This document shows, in pieces, positions 8,368-15,925 of a stretch of 64,000 nucleotides of DNA; the first letter of the stretch is position 1, and every line of letters begins with the position of its first letter. The stretch lies in NCBI GenBank assembly GCA_004299485.1, contig SCQP01000012.1:1-64000 (forward strand), in the 5' to 3' direction. Origin of the DNA: Acidobacteriota bacterium. GTDB lineage: Bacteria; Acidobacteriota; Terriglobia; Terriglobales; SCQP01. A model generated the notes under the pieces. It saw nothing but the letters and a program-made list of their open reading frames with translations. It made no database searches and was not told the origin of the DNA. Both the position numbers and the translations under genes were made by a program.

Positions 8368-8385
8368 GTGGGAGGCAGGCAAATC

Positions 8386-10332
8386 ATGGCAAAGATTATC
8401 GGAATTGACCTTGGCACCACCAACAGCGTGGTTGCCGTCATGGAAAACGGCGAACCCAAAGTGATCGCCAACGCCGAAGGCGGGCGGACGACGCCGTCGG
8501 TGGTGGCGTTCACCAAGAATGGCGAGCGGCTGGTGGGCCAGGTGGCCAAGCGGCAGGCGATTACCAACCCGGATGGGACGGTGTATTCGATCAAGCGCTT
8601 CATGGGGCGGCGCTACAACGAAGTCAGCGAAGAGATGAAGATGGTGCCCTACAAGGTGGTGCAGCAGGGCGACCACGTGGCGGTGGAGGTGCAGGGGAAG
8701 ACGTATACGCCGCCGGAGATTTCGGCGTTCATTCTGCAGAAGCTGAAACAGGCGGCGGACGATTACCTGGGCGAAAAAGTTACCGAAGCGGTGATCACCG
8801 TGCCGGCGTACTTTAACGACGCGCAGCGGCAGGCGACGAAGGACGCGGGGCGGATTGCGGGCCTGGACGTCAAGCGCATTGTGAACGAGCCGACGGCGGC
8901 GGCGCTGGCGTATGGCCTCGACAAGCAGAAGGAAGAGACCATCGCCATTTATGACTTTGGCGGCGGAACGTTCGACATTTCAATTCTGGAAGTGGGCGAG
9001 GGCGTGGTCGAGGTGAAATCGACCAACGGGGACACGCACCTGGGCGGCGACAACATCGACCAGCGGCTGGTGGACTGGCTGGTGGACGACTTCAAGAAAG
9101 ACGAAGGCATCGACCTGCGCGGGCGCGGCAACGAGATGGCGCTGCAGCGGCTGAAGGACGCGGCGGAGAAGGCCAAGATGGAGCTGTCGACGACGATGGA
9201 GACGGAGATCAACCTGCCCTTCATCACCGCCGACGCCAGCGGGCCGAAACACCTGCTGAAAAAGCTGTCACGCTCGCAGTTTGAGCGCATGGTGGAAGAG
9301 ATTTTGCAGCGCTCGGTGGCGCCCTGCCAGCAGGCGCTCAAAGACGCCGGCCTCACCGCGGACAAGATCAACGAAGTGGTGCTGGTGGGCGGCTCGACGC
9401 GCATTCCGCGGGTGCAGCAGATCGTGAAGGACCTGTTCCACAAGGAGCCGCACAAGGGCGTGAATCCGGACGAAGTGGTGGCGGTGGGGGCGGCGGTGCA
9501 GGCGGGCGTGCTGGCGGGCGAGGTGAAAGACCTGCTGCTGCTGGACGTGACGCCGCTGTCGCTGGGCATCGAGACTCTGGGCGGGGTGAACACGGTGCTG
9601 ATCCAGCGCAACACCACGATTCCGACGCGGAAGAGCGAGACGTTTTCGACCGCGGCCGACAACCAGACGTCGGTTGAGGTACACGTGCTGCAAGGCGAGC
9701 GGCCGATGGCGGCGCAGAACCGGACGCTGGGGAAGTTCCATCTGGTGGGTCTGCCGGCGGCGCCGCGCGGGATTCCGCAAATTGAGGTGACGTTCGACAT
9801 TGACGCCAACGGCATCGTGAACGTGAGCGCCAAGGATCTGGGCACGAGCAAGGAGCAGAAGATCACCATCACCAGCTCCAGCGGCTTGTCGAAGGACGAG
9901 ATCGACCGCATGACCAAGGAGGCCGAGGCGCACTCGGACGAGGACAAGCAGCGGCGCGAAGAGGTGGAGGCGCGCAATCAGCTCGACAGCCTGGTGTACA
10001 ACACCGACAAGATGCTGAAGGAGAACCGGGAGAAGGTTCCGGCGAGCGATGCGCAGGCGGTGGACGCGGCGCTGGCGGACGGGCGCAAGGCCCTGGAAGG
10101 CGGCGATACGGCGGCGATGGTGGCGGCCAAGGATGCGCTGACCGCGGCCACGCACAAGCTGGCGGAGGCGCTGTACAAGAACGCCAGCGCGCAGCCGGGC
10201 GGGCAGGCGCCGCCGAGCGAGCCGGAGCCGGGCGCGGGCGCGGCGCCGGGTACGGGCAATGGCGAGGCGAAGCCGGGGGACGTGATCGACGCCGAATATG
10301 TGGATGCCGACGGCGACGGCAAGAAGGGCTAA
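8386..10332 (+). CDS. dnaK: Molecular chaperone DnaK (Hsp70)
   Basis: A 648-residue cytosolic Hsp70. Present are the nucleotide-binding motifs [26 protein letters not shown] and the [13 protein letters not shown] block, the interdomain linker [19 protein letters not shown], the substrate domain and the acidic tail DVIDAEYVD. An Ala/Gly/Pro-rich low-complexity linker precedes the tail. ATG 8386 is chosen because GGAGG lies 10 bases upstream and the protein then begins [10 protein letters not shown]; an in-frame GTG at 8368 overlaps the ribosome-binding site. First gene of dnaK-dnaJ-hspR; no grpE is adjacent. Confidence 0.98.
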
Positions 10333-10344
10333 CATTCCCTTAAC

Positions 10345-11553
10345 GTGCCCACGGCCACCAAAGACTACTACGCCGTATTAGGAATCAAGCGGGGCGCCAC
10401 GGCGGACGAGATCCGCAAGGCGTACCGGCGGCTGGCGCGCAAGCTGCACCCGGACGTCAACCCGGGCAACAAGACGGCGGAAGACCGCTTTAAGCAGGTA
10501 CAGGAAGCCTACGACATCCTGAGCGACGCGAAGAAGCGGGATTTTTTCGACAAAACCGGTTTCTACAACGACCAGGCGTTTCAGCAGGGCGCGGACGTGT
10601 TTACGGGCGCGGCGCAGGGCGCGGCGGCCGGCGGTGCGCGCGGAGAAGGACGCTGGACGGGAGCGCCGCCGCCGGGATTTGATTTTTCCGGCTTCGATTT
10701 CTCGGGCTTTGAGCCGGGGGCGGCGGGCGCGGGGCGCAAGACGGCGGGCGGAGGGTCGTTCCGCGATATTTTTTCGAGCATCTTCAACCGCCAGGGCGCG
10801 CCCGCGGAGACGACCGGGAGCGATCTGGAGTATCAGGTGACGGTCGGGTTCTGGGATGCGATCCGGGGCTCGGTGCTGCGGCTGAATGTGCCGCGCCAGG
10901 ACCGCTGCCCGCAGTGCAACGGCACGGGCACGGGCGGACGCGGGGGAGTGTGTCCGGAGTGCGGCGGTAAGGGGCAGGTTTCGCAGACCGTCAATGGGAT
11001 GAAGTTCAACCTGCGCTGCGGCACCTGCGGCGGAACGGGCAAGGCGGGCGCGGCTTGTCCGCGCTGTCACGGCCAGGGCAGGGTGCAGCAGACCGAATCG
11101 CTGCAGGTGCAACTCAAGCCGGGCACGCGCGAAGGGGCGCGGCTGCGGATCCCGGGCAAGGGCAATTGGGGATCGGAAGGCAGCGGCGATCTGTACGTGA
11201 TCGTGCGCATCAAGCCGCATGCGCTGTTCCAGCGGCAGGCGGACGACATTTACGTGAAGGTGCCGATCAGCATTACGGAGGCGGCGCTGGGGGCCAAGAT
11301 CGGCGTGCCCACGATCGAGGGCAAGGCGCTGCTGAATATTCCGGCGGGGACGCAGTCGGGGCAGAAGTTCCGGATGCGCGAGCGCGGCGTCGCCAACGCG
11401 CAGCACGGCGAGGTGCGCGGGGATGAATACGTGGAAGTGCAGGTGGTGGTGCCGCACCTGCGCGACGAGCAGAGCCGCGAGCTGCTGCGCGAGTTCGCGC
11501 GGCTCAATCCCGAAGACGCGCGCGAGGCGGTTCTGAAGCAGGCGCAAGGGTAG
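10345..11553 (+). CDS. dnaJ: Co-chaperone DnaJ (Hsp40)
   Basis: A 402-residue class A J-protein that stimulates DnaK ATPase. The J domain (residues 7-70) contains [10 protein letters not shown] with the HPD triad. A Gly/Phe-rich linker with repeated FDFSGF follows. The zinc domain has four Cys pairs: [24 protein letters not shown] and CPRCHGQG. The C-terminal peptide-binding domains are complete. Translation starts at GTG 10345, 12 bases after the dnaK stop, so the two are co-transcribed. Confidence 0.97.
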
Positions 11554-11561
11554 GGGGCAGG

Positions 11562-11969
11562 ATGGTCCGCAAAAAAGGCCGCGCTGCGTACATGATTTCC
11601 GCTGTCGCCGAGCAGTACGGCGTGCATCCGCAGACACTGCGGCTGTACGAGCGCGAAGGGCTGCTGAAGCCGTCACGCACGGAAGGCAACACGCGGCTGT
11701 ACACGGAGGAGGACCTGCAGCGGCTGGAGGTGATTCTGTCGCTGACGCGCGACATGGGGGTGAATCTGGCGGGGGTTGAGGTGATCCTGAATCTGCGCGA
11801 GCGCATGCAGCAGATGCAGCAGCAGATGCAGGAGTTCGTGGACTTTGTGCAGCACGATCTGGTGAACCGCGGGATGGGTCTCGGCGGGACGAGCGAGGCG
11901 CTGGTGCCGGTGCGGCAGGGGCCGGGAGGCAGGGGTCAGGGGTCAGGGGCCAGGGGCCAGGGCCGCTAG
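11562..11969 (+). CDS. hspR: MerR-family heat-shock repressor HspR
   Basis: A 135-residue MerR-type regulator. The winged-helix domain reads YGVHPQTLRLYEREGLLKP and TEGNTRLYTEEDLQRLE, the HspR signature, followed by a Gln/Met-rich coiled helix MQQMQQQMQEF. In bacteria with this gene order HspR represses its own operon together with DnaK; that is family knowledge. The last ~20 residues (Gly/Gln/Arg-rich, ending GARGQGR) are encoded by a tandem AGGGGTCAGGGG/CCAGGGG repeat at about 11930-11966 and look like a recent low-complexity addition. Confidence 0.93.
   Translation: MVRKKGRAAYMISAVAEQYGVHPQTLRLYEREGLLKPSRTEGNTRLYTEEDLQRLEVILSLTRDMGVNLAGVEVILNLRERMQQMQQQMQEFVDFVQHDLVNRGMGLGGTSEALVPVRQGPGGRGQGSGARGQGR
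11930..11966 (+). repeat. Tandem AGGGGTC/AGGGGCC low-complexity repeat inside hspR 3' end
   Basis: About five near-repeats of a 7-base G-rich unit (CAGGGGT, CAGGGGC) encode the Gly/Gln tail of HspR. The same G-rich words recur at 49010-49035 in the kinase gene and 60390-60410 between dnaN and lolA, next to GGGAAAAGGG tracts. Confidence 0.7.
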
Positions 11970-12586: not shown

Positions 12587-13630
12587 TCATGCGCGGGCCG
12601 CAGGCGTAAACAGGACGCGGCTGCTGAGGGGGATTTCGCGCAGCTTGGCTACCTGCCAGCCGGATTGCGACGCGAGCGCGGCGAAGGCGGAGGCGGTGCG
12701 GGGATGGGTGGCGGCGCCGCGGTCCTGCCGCAGCTTGCGCGAGAGGTCGTCGTCGCTGGTGAAGGTGCCGGCGACGGCAAGCACATTGCCGGCGCGCGCC
12801 AGCACCGCCAGATTCGCCGCGATCGTGGCATCGTCGCCGTACTCGAATAAGCCGCCTTCGGAGGAGGCAACCGTGATCGTGGCCGACGCGCGGGCTGACA
12901 AGGCTGATTGCAGCGATGCCGTGTCGCGCCAGTCGTAGGGGATGTGGCGAAACGAAATGGCCAGACCGGCGAGGGGTGCACCTGGCGCGCAGAGCGCGGC
13001 GAGGGCCGCGCGGCCGAAGGCGGGGCCGGCGTCGTCCTGATCGAAGACGTCGATGGCGATCGGGCGGTGCTCGAGTAGTGCGGGCGCGTGCTGGTGGAGG
13101 AGCAGAAGCGCATTCCAGGTGTCGGCGGCCGGGCCGCCGGCGATGTCCACAAACTGGAGCGGAGCCTGCGGGTTGGCCGCCAGCACCGGGCCGAGAACAT
13201 CCGCCAGGTAGTGCGCCATATCGTGCAGGCGCAGTCGCATGGCGAGGAGCGACGGCCCCTGTGCGAAGTGACGGTCGAGGGGCTGGGCGTAGGTGGCGCC
13301 GAGCATGTCGGGACCGAGCTTCATGAGGTAGGTGCTCGTGCCGCTGACGAATGAGTTGCGCGACTCGAGCAAGCAGCGGCCCACGAGCGAGCGGCGCATC
13401 ATGCGCTGGAACAGCAGGGAGCGCAGAAACCGGGGCAGGCGGCGAAAGGGACTGCGCTCGAGGAAGCGGGTAAAGCGCTCCTGCAGCTCGGCGTCGCTGA
13501 GGGCCGGTTCGGCGAAGGCGGGATGAGTGATGTCGATGACCGGCAGCTCGAGGCCGTCGGGCGTGAGTGCGTAGCAGACGCCAAGTTTCTTGTTGGCTTC
13601 GAGGCGCGCGGGGGCGGGCGGCGGCGTCAC
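12587..13630 (-). CDS. Uncharacterised protein with a methyltransferase-like Rossmann core
   Basis: 347 residues, not confidently assigned. The central FVDIAGGPAADTWNALLLL resembles a SAM-binding motif I, followed after the expected distance by an acidic IDVFDQDD and later PYDWRD and ASSEGGLFEYGDD. The N-terminal 150 residues are helical and Arg-rich with no known domain. GTG 13630 overlaps the stop of the ImmA-like gene (GTGA), so it is translationally coupled to an XRE regulator/metallopeptidase pair. That link suggests a conditionally expressed effector rather than a housekeeping enzyme, which is inference. Only 40% sure it is a genuine methyltransferase. Confidence 0.75.
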   Translation of the reverse strand: MTPPPAPARLEANKKLGVCYALTPDGLELPVIDITHPAFAEPALSDAELQERFTRFLERSPFRRLPRFLRSLLFQRMMRRSLVGRCLLESRNSFVSGTSTYLMKLGPDMLGATYAQPLDRHFAQGPSLLAMRLRLHDMAHYLADVLGPVLAANPQAPLQFVDIAGGPAADTWNALLLLHQHAPALLEHRPIAIDVFDQDDAGPAFGRAALAALCAPGAPLAGLAISFRHIPYDWRDTASLQSALSARASATITVASSEGGLFEYGDDATIAANLAVLARAGNVLAVAGTFTSDDDLSRKLRQDRGAATHPRTASAFAALASQSGWQVAKLREIPLSSRVLFTPAARA

Positions 13631-14064
13631 GGCTTCAGCCGCAGGCGCGCCAGATGGATTTCAACTGCTTTCGCGCTCACCGAGAATTGCTTGCTGAGCG
13701 GTTCGGCCGCATAAGAGTTGAAGGTGGGCGCGTCGACGCCTGCGCCGAGCCCCGCCGCGTGCTTAACCTGGGTTGAGTACGCAGCCTCGATTGCTTTGGG
13801 CGGCATGAGCACGCAGCCTGCGAAGTTGTTGGCGTCTGCTTCCCACGCGTCCAGGCTCTGCGTGGGCAAAGCCGCCAAAAACGCGCGGTACTCTTCGATC
13901 GACGACATGCGCTTTTCTGCGTAGACGTCCGCATGCAGCACGCGGTGCCCGATTTCGTGCGCCAGGGTAAAGCGATAGCGCTCCGAGTAGGTGCTCATCA
14001 TGTAGTCATCTACATAAATTGCGGAAAAATCGCTCGCCAGAAACCCGTCCACGTAGGCAAGCAT
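13627..14064 (-). CDS. ImmA/IrrE-family zinc metallopeptidase
   Basis: A 145-residue DUF955/ImmA protein. The zinc site HEIGHRVLH (HExxH plus downstream His) and the helix WEADANNFAGCVLMP are diagnostic. Members usually cleave or inactivate a partner XRE repressor in response to a signal, and the XRE gene lies 3 bases upstream in the same operon. It is coupled by a 4-base overlap to the downstream methyltransferase-like gene. It is shorter than IrrE-type regulators and has no separate N-terminal DNA-binding domain, consistent with a split XRE + ImmA arrangement. Confidence 0.88.
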   Translation of the reverse strand: MLAYVDGFLASDFSAIYVDDYMMSTYSERYRFTLAHEIGHRVLHADVYAEKRMSSIEEYRAFLAALPTQSLDAWEADANNFAGCVLMPPKAIEAAYSTQVKHAAGLGAGVDAPTFNSYAAEPLSKQFSVSAKAVEIHLARLRLKP

Positions 14065-14067
14065 TGC

Positions 14068-14433
14068 TTAGCTGCTGCGAATCTTCTCGATCAGCGCATC
14101 CATGTGCTTGCCGTCCAGACCGTTGTTGCGAATGGTCCGGAACAGAAGCGGCAACCGGGCCACCACTTCCTCCTCTGAGGTCATATACGCAGGCATCGTA
14201 CCAGCCCCGGCTGCCGCCAGGTCGAAGAACTCGTACCACTCCGGCGAGGCCTCTTTCAACCGAAGATCGGCTGCGTACTGCTCCAGCTTCGCCCGCGCGT
14301 CAGGCGGCGGCAGCAGCCCGCGCTCCAGTTTGCTGATATTGCCAGGATCGTAGCCATGCTGCACACAGAATTCGCGCAACCCCTCGCCGTTGCGCAGACG
14401 GCACTCTTTGAAAAAGCTGCCAAAGCTCTTCAT
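14068..14433 (-). CDS. XRE-family transcriptional regulator
   Basis: A 121-residue protein with an N-terminal helix-turn-helix: LREFCVQHGYDPGNISKLERG (about residues 19-39) matches the Cro/CI pattern. The rest is helical. It is the first gene of the XRE-ImmA-methyltransferase-like operon. A perfect 7-base inverted repeat covering a good -10 box lies 31-48 bases upstream, pointing to autorepression relieved by the ImmA protease. Confidence 0.87.
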   Translation of the reverse strand: MKSFGSFFKECRLRNGEGLREFCVQHGYDPGNISKLERGLLPPPDARAKLEQYAADLRLKEASPEWYEFFDLAAAGAGTMPAYMTSEEEVVARLPLLFRTIRNNGLDGKHMDALIEKIRSS

Positions 14434-14521: not shown

Positions 14522-15868
14522 TTATTCAGCGAGGCGAGCGAACTGCTCGCCGGTGGGTTCGGCTCAACAGAACCAGGGTTCGTCGAGGTAGGGGATGGTC
14601 GCGCGAACGGGCGCCGCGGCGGGGAGATGCACGCCGCCGACCAGGTTGGCGATTGCGGCGAAGATTTCGGGGCGGGGGCGCTGGGTTTTGGTGGCGTGGG
14701 CAACCGTGTCTTGCACAGCGGAGCAGAGATCGTCGGCGGTGGGGTCGAGCGGGCGCCAGAGGTAGCTGAGGGCGGCGGGGTCGAAGTCGCCGAGCCATTC
14801 GGCGGCGCCGGGCAGGTTGAGCATCAGCGAGCCTTGGGGGATCAACAGGCGGATGCCGAACTGGACGGGGGCGATCTGGGTGACGAGATCATGCGCGGCG
14901 AGGGCGTCGAGCATGGCGCGGAAGCTGGCGGGCGTCGTCCAGGGGGTGAAGCTGACGAAGGTGGGGTTGAGCGGGAGGCCGAGGCTGCGCGTCAGCTCCA
15001 GGGCGCGGAAGAAGTCGGCGGCGGTGTGGCCTTTGTCGAGCCGGGCGAGAACGGCGTCGTCAAACGACTCGACGGCGGTGGTGATGAGGGCGCAGCCGGC
15101 GTCGCGCAGGCGCGGCAACAGCGCGGCGTGCTGGAGCAGGTGCTCAACCTTGATGGTGGCGTCGAAGCTGAGGGTAGGAAATTCGCGGTGGAGGGCGTCG
15201 ACGATGCGCAGGGCGTGGGTGGGACCGTTGAGGAAATCGGGGTCGCCGAAGGTGATGTGCTGGGCGCCGGCGGCGACTTGCTGGCGGATATCGGCGAGCA
15301 CCACATCGGGCGCGACGATGCGGAAGCGGCCCTGGTAAATCGGCACGATGGGGCAGTGGCGGCAGTGATGCTTGCAGCCGCGCGAGGCTTCGGTGTAGCC
15401 GGCGATGCGGCGCGCGCCATCGGGCAGGTGCAGATGCGCATATTCACTGAGGGGCGGCAGATCGCGGCGGTCGGGCACAGCAAAGGTCAGGCGCGCAAGG
15501 CCGGGCGCGGGTTCGGTGGCGCCGGCGGCCAAGTCGGCCTCGAACTCCGGTCCGAGGATGGTGTCCACGCCGGCATCGCGCAGTAGACTGGCGTTCATGG
15601 GCGCGTAAAGGCCGAAAGCGACGATGCGCGCACGGGACGCAAGCTGACGCAGGCGCGGCAGAAGAGCCAGCACGAGGCGCGTGGCGGTGTGCATGGGCAG
15701 GTAGAGGCCGACGAGGTCCGCGGCCGCGAGGGCGTGCTCGTCGAGCTGCTGGCGCGAGAGGTCGGCGCAGGTGACGTCCCAGCCGGCGCGGCGGAGCCAG
15801 GCGGCGGGCGAGGCCAGGCCGAAGGGCTGGCGCCCCATCTCGTAGGTCCCGATCAGTACTGCCCGCAT
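14522..15868 (-). CDS. B12-binding-like radical SAM protein with predicted selenocysteine tail (CUAEP type)
   Basis: From ATG 15868 to the TGA at 14564-14566 the protein has 434 residues: an N-terminal cobalamin-binding-like domain (FGLASPAAWLRRAGWDV, LVGLYLPMHTATR) and a radical SAM core with the 4Fe-4S motif GCKHHCRHCP. The apparent C-terminus is EPWFC. Reading TGA as selenocysteine gives Cys-Sec-Ala-Glu-Pro, then TGEQFARLAE and TAA at 14522-14524. This matches the 'CUAEP/CCAEP-tail' radical SAM family as I recall it, where the residue is Sec or Cys. A hairpin suited to a bacterial SECIS lies 12 bases after the TGA. Total 448 residues. ATG 15892 is an alternative start. Substrate unknown. 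It is divergent from an SDR gene. Confidence 0.85.
14533..14551 (-). promoter_or_regulatory. Predicted bacterial SECIS hairpin
   Basis: On the minus strand, GGCGAGC (14551-14545), loop AGTTC, GCTCGCC (14539-14533): a perfect 7-bp stem starting 12 bases after the in-frame TGA. In E. coli fdhF the SelB-binding stem-loop starts about 11 bases after UGA and has a G-U in the apical loop; here the loop also holds G followed by U. It lies wholly within the predicted coding tail. Confidence 0.65.
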
Positions 15869-15925
15869 AGTCTCATGATAGCGAGCTGCCATTTTGTGCC
15901 ATGCTGAATGGTTCTAGGAGGGGCG

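Follow-up and report, generated by a model that had tools for sequence, protein, structure and literature searches.

A predicted selenoprotein of the CUAEP/CCAEP-tail radical SAM family in an acidobacterium and its probable ATP-grasp ligase partner

Sequence comparison places ArsL, an enzyme of arsinothricin biosynthesis, as the nearest characterised kin of the protein described here; ArsL reportedly cleaves SAM, and the 3-amino-3-carboxypropyl (ACP) radical so formed is joined to As(III) (PMC8552651). The protein's own family has already been named by NCBI, as the CUAEP/CCAEP-tail radical SAM (seleno)proteins (NF040546, an equivalog family), and is described there as containing selenoproteins; the protein studied here is a new member. 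A 2026 review of selenoproteins, which suggests that Sec in SaoB and SaoC may be a metal ligand (PMC13188914), names neither CUAEP nor NF040546, and our literature search found no paper naming CUAEP or RCCLKC, the C-terminal motif of ArsL.

The gene and its family

The gene lies on the minus strand of the window, a 64,000-nucleotide stretch of contig SCQP01000012.1 from an Acidobacteriota bacterium. Its features are as follows.

14522..15868, minus: CUAEP-tail radical SAM selenoprotein gene (predicted), 448 codons, Sec at codon 435, then TAA
15545..15859, minus: N-terminal Rossmann domain, B12-binding-like (PF02310, residues 4-108; fold closest to AprD4, OxsB and TsrM)
15353..15376, minus: radical SAM cluster motif C165-x3-C169-x2-C172, invariant in the alignment
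14561..14569, minus: putative vicinal chalcogen pair, Cys434-Sec435-Ala436, aligning with the Cys-Cys of the ArsL RCCLKC tail
14564..14566, minus: TGA very probably read as selenocysteine (Sec435), from the codons of homologues (TGA in 78, TGC/TGT in 37) and the Sec machinery
14533..14551, minus: bacterial SECIS-type hairpin GGCGAGC-AGUUC-GCUCGCC, from its fold and its covariation in TGA homologues; at chance level in Cys homologues
14522..14524, minus: predicted true stop codon TAA, from frame translation

The frame from 15868 to 14525 reads MRAVLIGTYEMGRQPFG...YLDEPWFC-TGA-AEPTGEQFARLAE-TAA, with the 13 residues AEPTGEQFARLAE between the TGA (14566-14564) and the TAA (14524-14522). With U for the TGA, the product has 448 residues and the C-terminus ...ATIPYLDEPWFCUAEPTGEQFARLAE, followed by TAA; the original prediction had placed the gene correctly and gave the tail after the TGA as it is found, leaving the minus strand unsaid. 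The ATG at 15892, further upstream, could also serve as the start, but the family alignment begins at MRAVLIG.

Against NF040546 the extended protein reaches 585.9 bits over residues 4-444 (curated cut-off, 500 bits), and the tail, which ends in the family's Cys-(Sec/Cys)-Ala-Glu-Pro motif at the C-terminus, adds 20 bits to a score of 565.4 without it. The CUAEP/CCAEP assignment made in the original prediction is thereby upheld, the AEP tail being invariant in the aligned relatives. Pfam places the radical SAM domain PF04055 at residues 162-299 (53 bits), with the CX3CX2C motif at C165, C169 and C172, and a B12-binding-like domain (PF02310) at the N terminus with 28.7 bits, below the gathering score of 32.1. 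The only other strong family match was to ArsL (NF040542; 235.8 bits), below the cut-off of 450.

Several neighbouring genes were noted in passing. Directly downstream, at 13627-14433 on the minus strand, come an HTH-like regulator gene and then an ImmA/IrrE-like peptidase gene (PF06114), whose stop is overlapped (GTGA) by the start of a minus-strand gene at 12587-13630. The latter encodes a 347-residue protein that has no Pfam or NCBIfam match; its VDIAGGPAADTW stretch resembles a SAM-dependent methyltransferase. On the plus strand, at 8368-11969, dnaK, dnaJ and a MerR/HspR-like regulator stand in a row in what looks like an ordinary heat-shock operon.

Predicted selenocysteine at codon 435

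The gene is very probably that of a genuine selenoprotein, in which tRNA-Sec, SelA, SelB and SelD, working with the SECIS hairpin, would insert selenocysteine at the UGA of codon 435. The original prediction had proposed Sec at this TGA and expected all four components to be encoded elsewhere in the genome, and a family-by-family search of the assembly (3.3 Mb, 22 contigs, 98.8% complete) located each of them: tRNA-Sec at C14:280669-280759 (73.1 bits against a gathering score of 47; called tRNA-SeC by ARAGORN, with anticodon TCA, that is, UCA), selA at C14:333333 (440.6 bits; cut-off, 267.9), selB at C7:28238 (320.5 bits; cut-off, 242), and selD at C16:330177 (347.5 bits; cut-off, 125). The same proposal is supported by the common AEP tail and by Cys codons in relatives. 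The chance of A-E-P directly after a TGA is about 3e-4 at this base composition.

Among 115 distinct homologous tails, taken from all loci fetched, codon 435 is TGA in 78 and TGC or TGT in 37; the Cys-codon homologues that the original prediction had proposed to look for thus make up about a third of the tails, and they have the AEP tail in common with the TGA forms. Within the phylum sample of 396 genomes, 61 encode a protein that passes the NF040546 cut-off, and in most of them the gene holds a single internal TGA. In an alignment of 19 of these proteins, Cys434 is followed by Cys or Sec at position 435 and then by Ala, Glu and Pro, without exception. On a tree of 118 proteins the Sec/Cys state changes 16 times by parsimony, at least 9 of these changes being forced by well-supported branches, compared with about 32 when the labels are shuffled; Sec and Cys have therefore replaced each other many times. 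Such repeated mutual replacement is typical of real selenoproteins. The distribution of selA follows the same line: it was found in 46 of the 47 genomes with a TGA form and in 5 of the 10 with a full-length Cys form (Fisher p 3e-4, phylogeny ignored), and the sole TGA-form genome that lacks it is a 75% complete assembly.

Further support comes from the mRNA. After the UGA follow GCCGAACCCACC and then GGCGAGC-AGUUC-GCUCGCC, a 7-bp stem with the loop AGUUC (-15 to -19 kcal/mol for the stretch); the hairpin begins 12 nt past the UGA, overlapping the tail codons, and its loop begins 19 nt past the UGA. These properties agree with the constraints on bacterial SECIS elements (bSECIS) given in PMC13188914. 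Single-sequence folding of the region gives unremarkable z-scores (-0.2 to -1.3), and it is the alignment alone that shows the element to be real. In 32 TGA-form homologues, chosen by hand out of 76 so that all loops had the same length, five, a six-pair helix is paired in 96.9% of cells, 41 cells are changed on both sides, and the covariation of the helix is 0.625, versus 0.200 when shuffled and at most 0.217 for the best slid control. In 26 Cys-form homologues, by comparison, the helix is paired in 49.4% of cells versus 45.5% when shuffled, no better than chance. When all 76 TGA forms are taken ungapped, the helix with its seventh pair is paired in 82.5% of cells, against 46% in 37 Cys forms. 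A few Cys forms, L061, L076 and L100 among them, keep an intact SECIS-like hairpin, which suggests that these are recent Sec-to-Cys conversions.

Were the TGA an ordinary stop, the protein would end at Cys434 and the AEP tail would be a product of chance or a relic. TGA does stop other genes of this genome in the normal way, and the standard annotation of a relative ends at the same place: in the plasmid record of Thermomicrobium roseum DSM 5159 (WP_012643191.1), where the CUAEP gene likewise has TGA at this codon (L175 7366-7380), the coding sequence ends ...ESWFC directly before TGA-GCG-GAG-CCG, which encodes AEP. Against this reading stand the invariance of the CUAEP tail with Cys codons substituting at the TGA, a hairpin that covaries in the TGA forms only, the presence of the Sec machinery in the genome, and the tracking of SelA by the TGA forms; we consider it very improbable. 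The Thermomicrobium record also bears out, in a relative, the earlier warning that the tail would be lost in conventional annotation.

Other accounts of the TGA are a recent mutation of a Cys codon (TGC) to a stop, an error of sequencing, or recoding throughout the genome. The existence of Cys forms among relatives might lend these some colour, but they are more improbable still, given the 78 homologues with TGA (the nearest relative, L054, an Acidobacteriales metagenome-assembled genome with 66% identity, among them), the intact hairpin of the gene itself, and the behaviour of TGA in the rest of the genome. There, TGA is the stop of 27 of the 78 genes predicted in 111 kb, and dnaK, atpA and similar conserved genes are open, without internal TGA; TGA is therefore not reassigned, and genome-wide recoding is rejected. 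A look at a few conserved genes had given no TGA stops among them, a small-sample impression superseded by the larger count.

Neither of the two outcomes named beforehand as counting against Sec, a genome lacking the machinery and unrelated sequence after the Cys in homologues, was seen. The covarying SECIS in the TGA forms, the match between TGA forms and SelA, and the normal TGA stops elsewhere are independent lines of support that go beyond what the original prediction had anticipated, and sequence evidence can hardly make the selenoprotein status more secure. The residue that defines the family is where standard gene callers end the enzyme, as in the public Thermomicrobium roseum record. 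The repeated Cys/Sec exchange, with matching gain and loss of the SECIS, also offers a clean natural comparison of Sec with Cys in one enzyme.

The ATP-grasp ligase and other neighbours

Clustering of the open reading frames around 113 CUAEP genes revealed one family that is next to the gene at most loci. Its members are ATP-grasp proteins composed of the ATP-grasp domain PF13535 and the L-amino-acid-ligase C-terminal domain LAL_C2 (PF18603). Among the 100 loci with enough sequence, this ligase is in reach of the CUAEP gene in 70, and in 56 of these it lies directly downstream on the same strand; the linked loci come from Acidobacteriota and also from Proteobacteria, Chloroflexi, Methylomirabilota and Latescibacterota. 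In the genome studied here the ligase is a 428-aa open frame unlinked to the CUAEP gene (C16:137218-138492; L178 8216-9493). This copy lies near fmt and ATP synthase genes.

When the same 396 genomes were searched for orthologues with this ligase protein (E 1e-50), it turned up in 67; these include 63 of the 65 genomes that carry CUAEP (Fisher p 1e-65, phylogeny ignored); four genomes have the ligase only, two of them incomplete assemblies, and two have CUAEP only. Because the co-occurrence is near-perfect, the ligase and the CUAEP protein probably act as a pair, even when they are not neighbours. No paper that we found states this link, and an earlier mention is possible in the Haft 2023 and 2025 selenoprotein papers; the literature search also gave no paper joining selenoprotein, ATP-grasp and radical SAM, or arsinothricin and ATP-grasp. 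As far as we checked, the ligase partnership is new. The co-occurrence gives a testable two-enzyme pathway beside the organoarsenical enzyme ArsL, and a first handle on the product of the family.

Two other kinds of neighbour fit an iron-sulfur enzyme: about one locus in two has YggX (PF04362, iron-trafficking) near the CUAEP gene, and in a subset of loci a NifU-like Fe-S protein (PF01106) is a frequent neighbour.

Proposed chemistry and comparison with known systems

Our proposal for the reaction takes ArsL as its model. The Cys-Sec pair, on a flexible C-terminal tail and in the position that Cys-Cys has in ArsL, would hold a soft heteroatom near the [4Fe-4S] cluster, the candidate atom being As(III) or another thiophilic atom; a SAM-derived fragment, probably 3-amino-3-carboxypropyl as in ArsL, would be joined to it; and the resulting amino acid would be coupled to another amino acid by the ATP-grasp ligase. 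As a whole, this sequence of holding, joining and coupling is put forward tentatively. Several observations speak against it, namely the lack of adjoining ars genes, a likeness to ArsL of only 30-40%, the position of AprD4 as best fold match, and the low confidence of the modelled tail (pLDDT 64-75).

The arsenic genes were sought in about 120 CUAEP loci by tblastn at E 1e-6 with ArsH, ArsC, ArsB, ArsR, ArsQ, ArsM, aquaporin and ArsN as queries, and these gave one ArsM-like and one ArsC-like match only; ArsR, ArsB, ArsQ and aquaporin matched in none of the loci. An arsenic island is thus rejected for these neighbourhoods, which are almost without ars genes; CUAEP is not simply ArsL in an ars cluster, and the absence of such genes nearby argues against a dedicated arsenic pathway. 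A search of the phylum sample for ArsL at E 1e-120 gave no match, the controls likewise giving none. On a Priestia plasmid (L177 1635-6275), a gene with an RCCLKC tail, ArsL-like, has an ATP-grasp gene in its vicinity, together with genes for an ArsR/SmtB regulator and an aquaporin; this set may be a cluster that produces an organoarsenical amino acid in ligated form, and its ATP-grasp ligase is only about 22% identical to the CUAEP partner ligase.

The main rival to the soft-atom chemistry accepts the selenoprotein and gives the Cys-Sec pair a different role, as a redox centre in which a reductant would cycle a selenenylsulfide, or as a cluster ligand; the reaction would then be another radical step, for example a dehydration or methylation of the kind found in the AprD4/OxsB/TsrM fold group. 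An AlphaFold2 model of the protein (mean pLDDT 90, the tail being its least certain part) matches AprD4 (PDB 6fd2; Z 27.8, the best), OxsB, MgmA and TsrM, with Z 24-28, and these fold matches favour such a role, as do the lack of ars genes nearby and the frequent replacement of Sec by Cys. The fold alone does not give the reaction; AprD4 is a diol dehydratase. No solved ArsL structure was among the sequence or fold matches. Set against a redox or ligand role are the closest family by sequence, which is ArsL, with a Cys-Cys tail at the same place, and the amino-acid ligase partner, which suits an amino-acid product. We regard this role as possible, and hold it with reserve.

Extended to the whole family, the soft-atom chemistry would make CUAEP and the ligase an uncharacterised, widespread selenium-dependent pathway of Acidobacteriota and several other phyla, in which a heteroatom amino acid (with an ArsL-like C-As bond, a C-Se bond or similar, the atom being presented by Cys-Sec) would be made and then coupled to another amino acid; in this full form we consider the idea rather unlikely.

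Among known systems, ArsL is a sister family with the same layout of Rossmann and radical SAM domains and the same CX3CX2C motif, and the Cys-Cys of its C-terminal RCCLKC aligns with Cys434-Sec435; the identity is 30-32% in the alignment, the linker is longer here, and the tail is CUAEP in place of RCCLKC, with the Cys pair alone in common. AprD4, OxsB and TsrM have the same fold, a Rossmann domain with a radical SAM barrel, but are at most 19% identical, and the Cys-Sec tail falls outside the well-aligned part. TIGR04167 is also a radical SAM selenoprotein, and SaoC, a Cys-Cys-COOH selenoprotein, also has a Cys-Sec pair, but both belong to different families (PMC13188914). The partner ligase has the same ATP-grasp and LAL_C2 make-up as the L-amino-acid ligases BacD and DdaF, but scores far below the cut-offs of those equivalogs. 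Compared with NF040546 itself, the protein matches over its full length above the equivalog cut-off, tail motif included, with Sec predicted at the expected place and no difference at the protein level; for this family, the covariation of the SECIS, the co-distribution with SelA and the partnership with the ligase are measured here.
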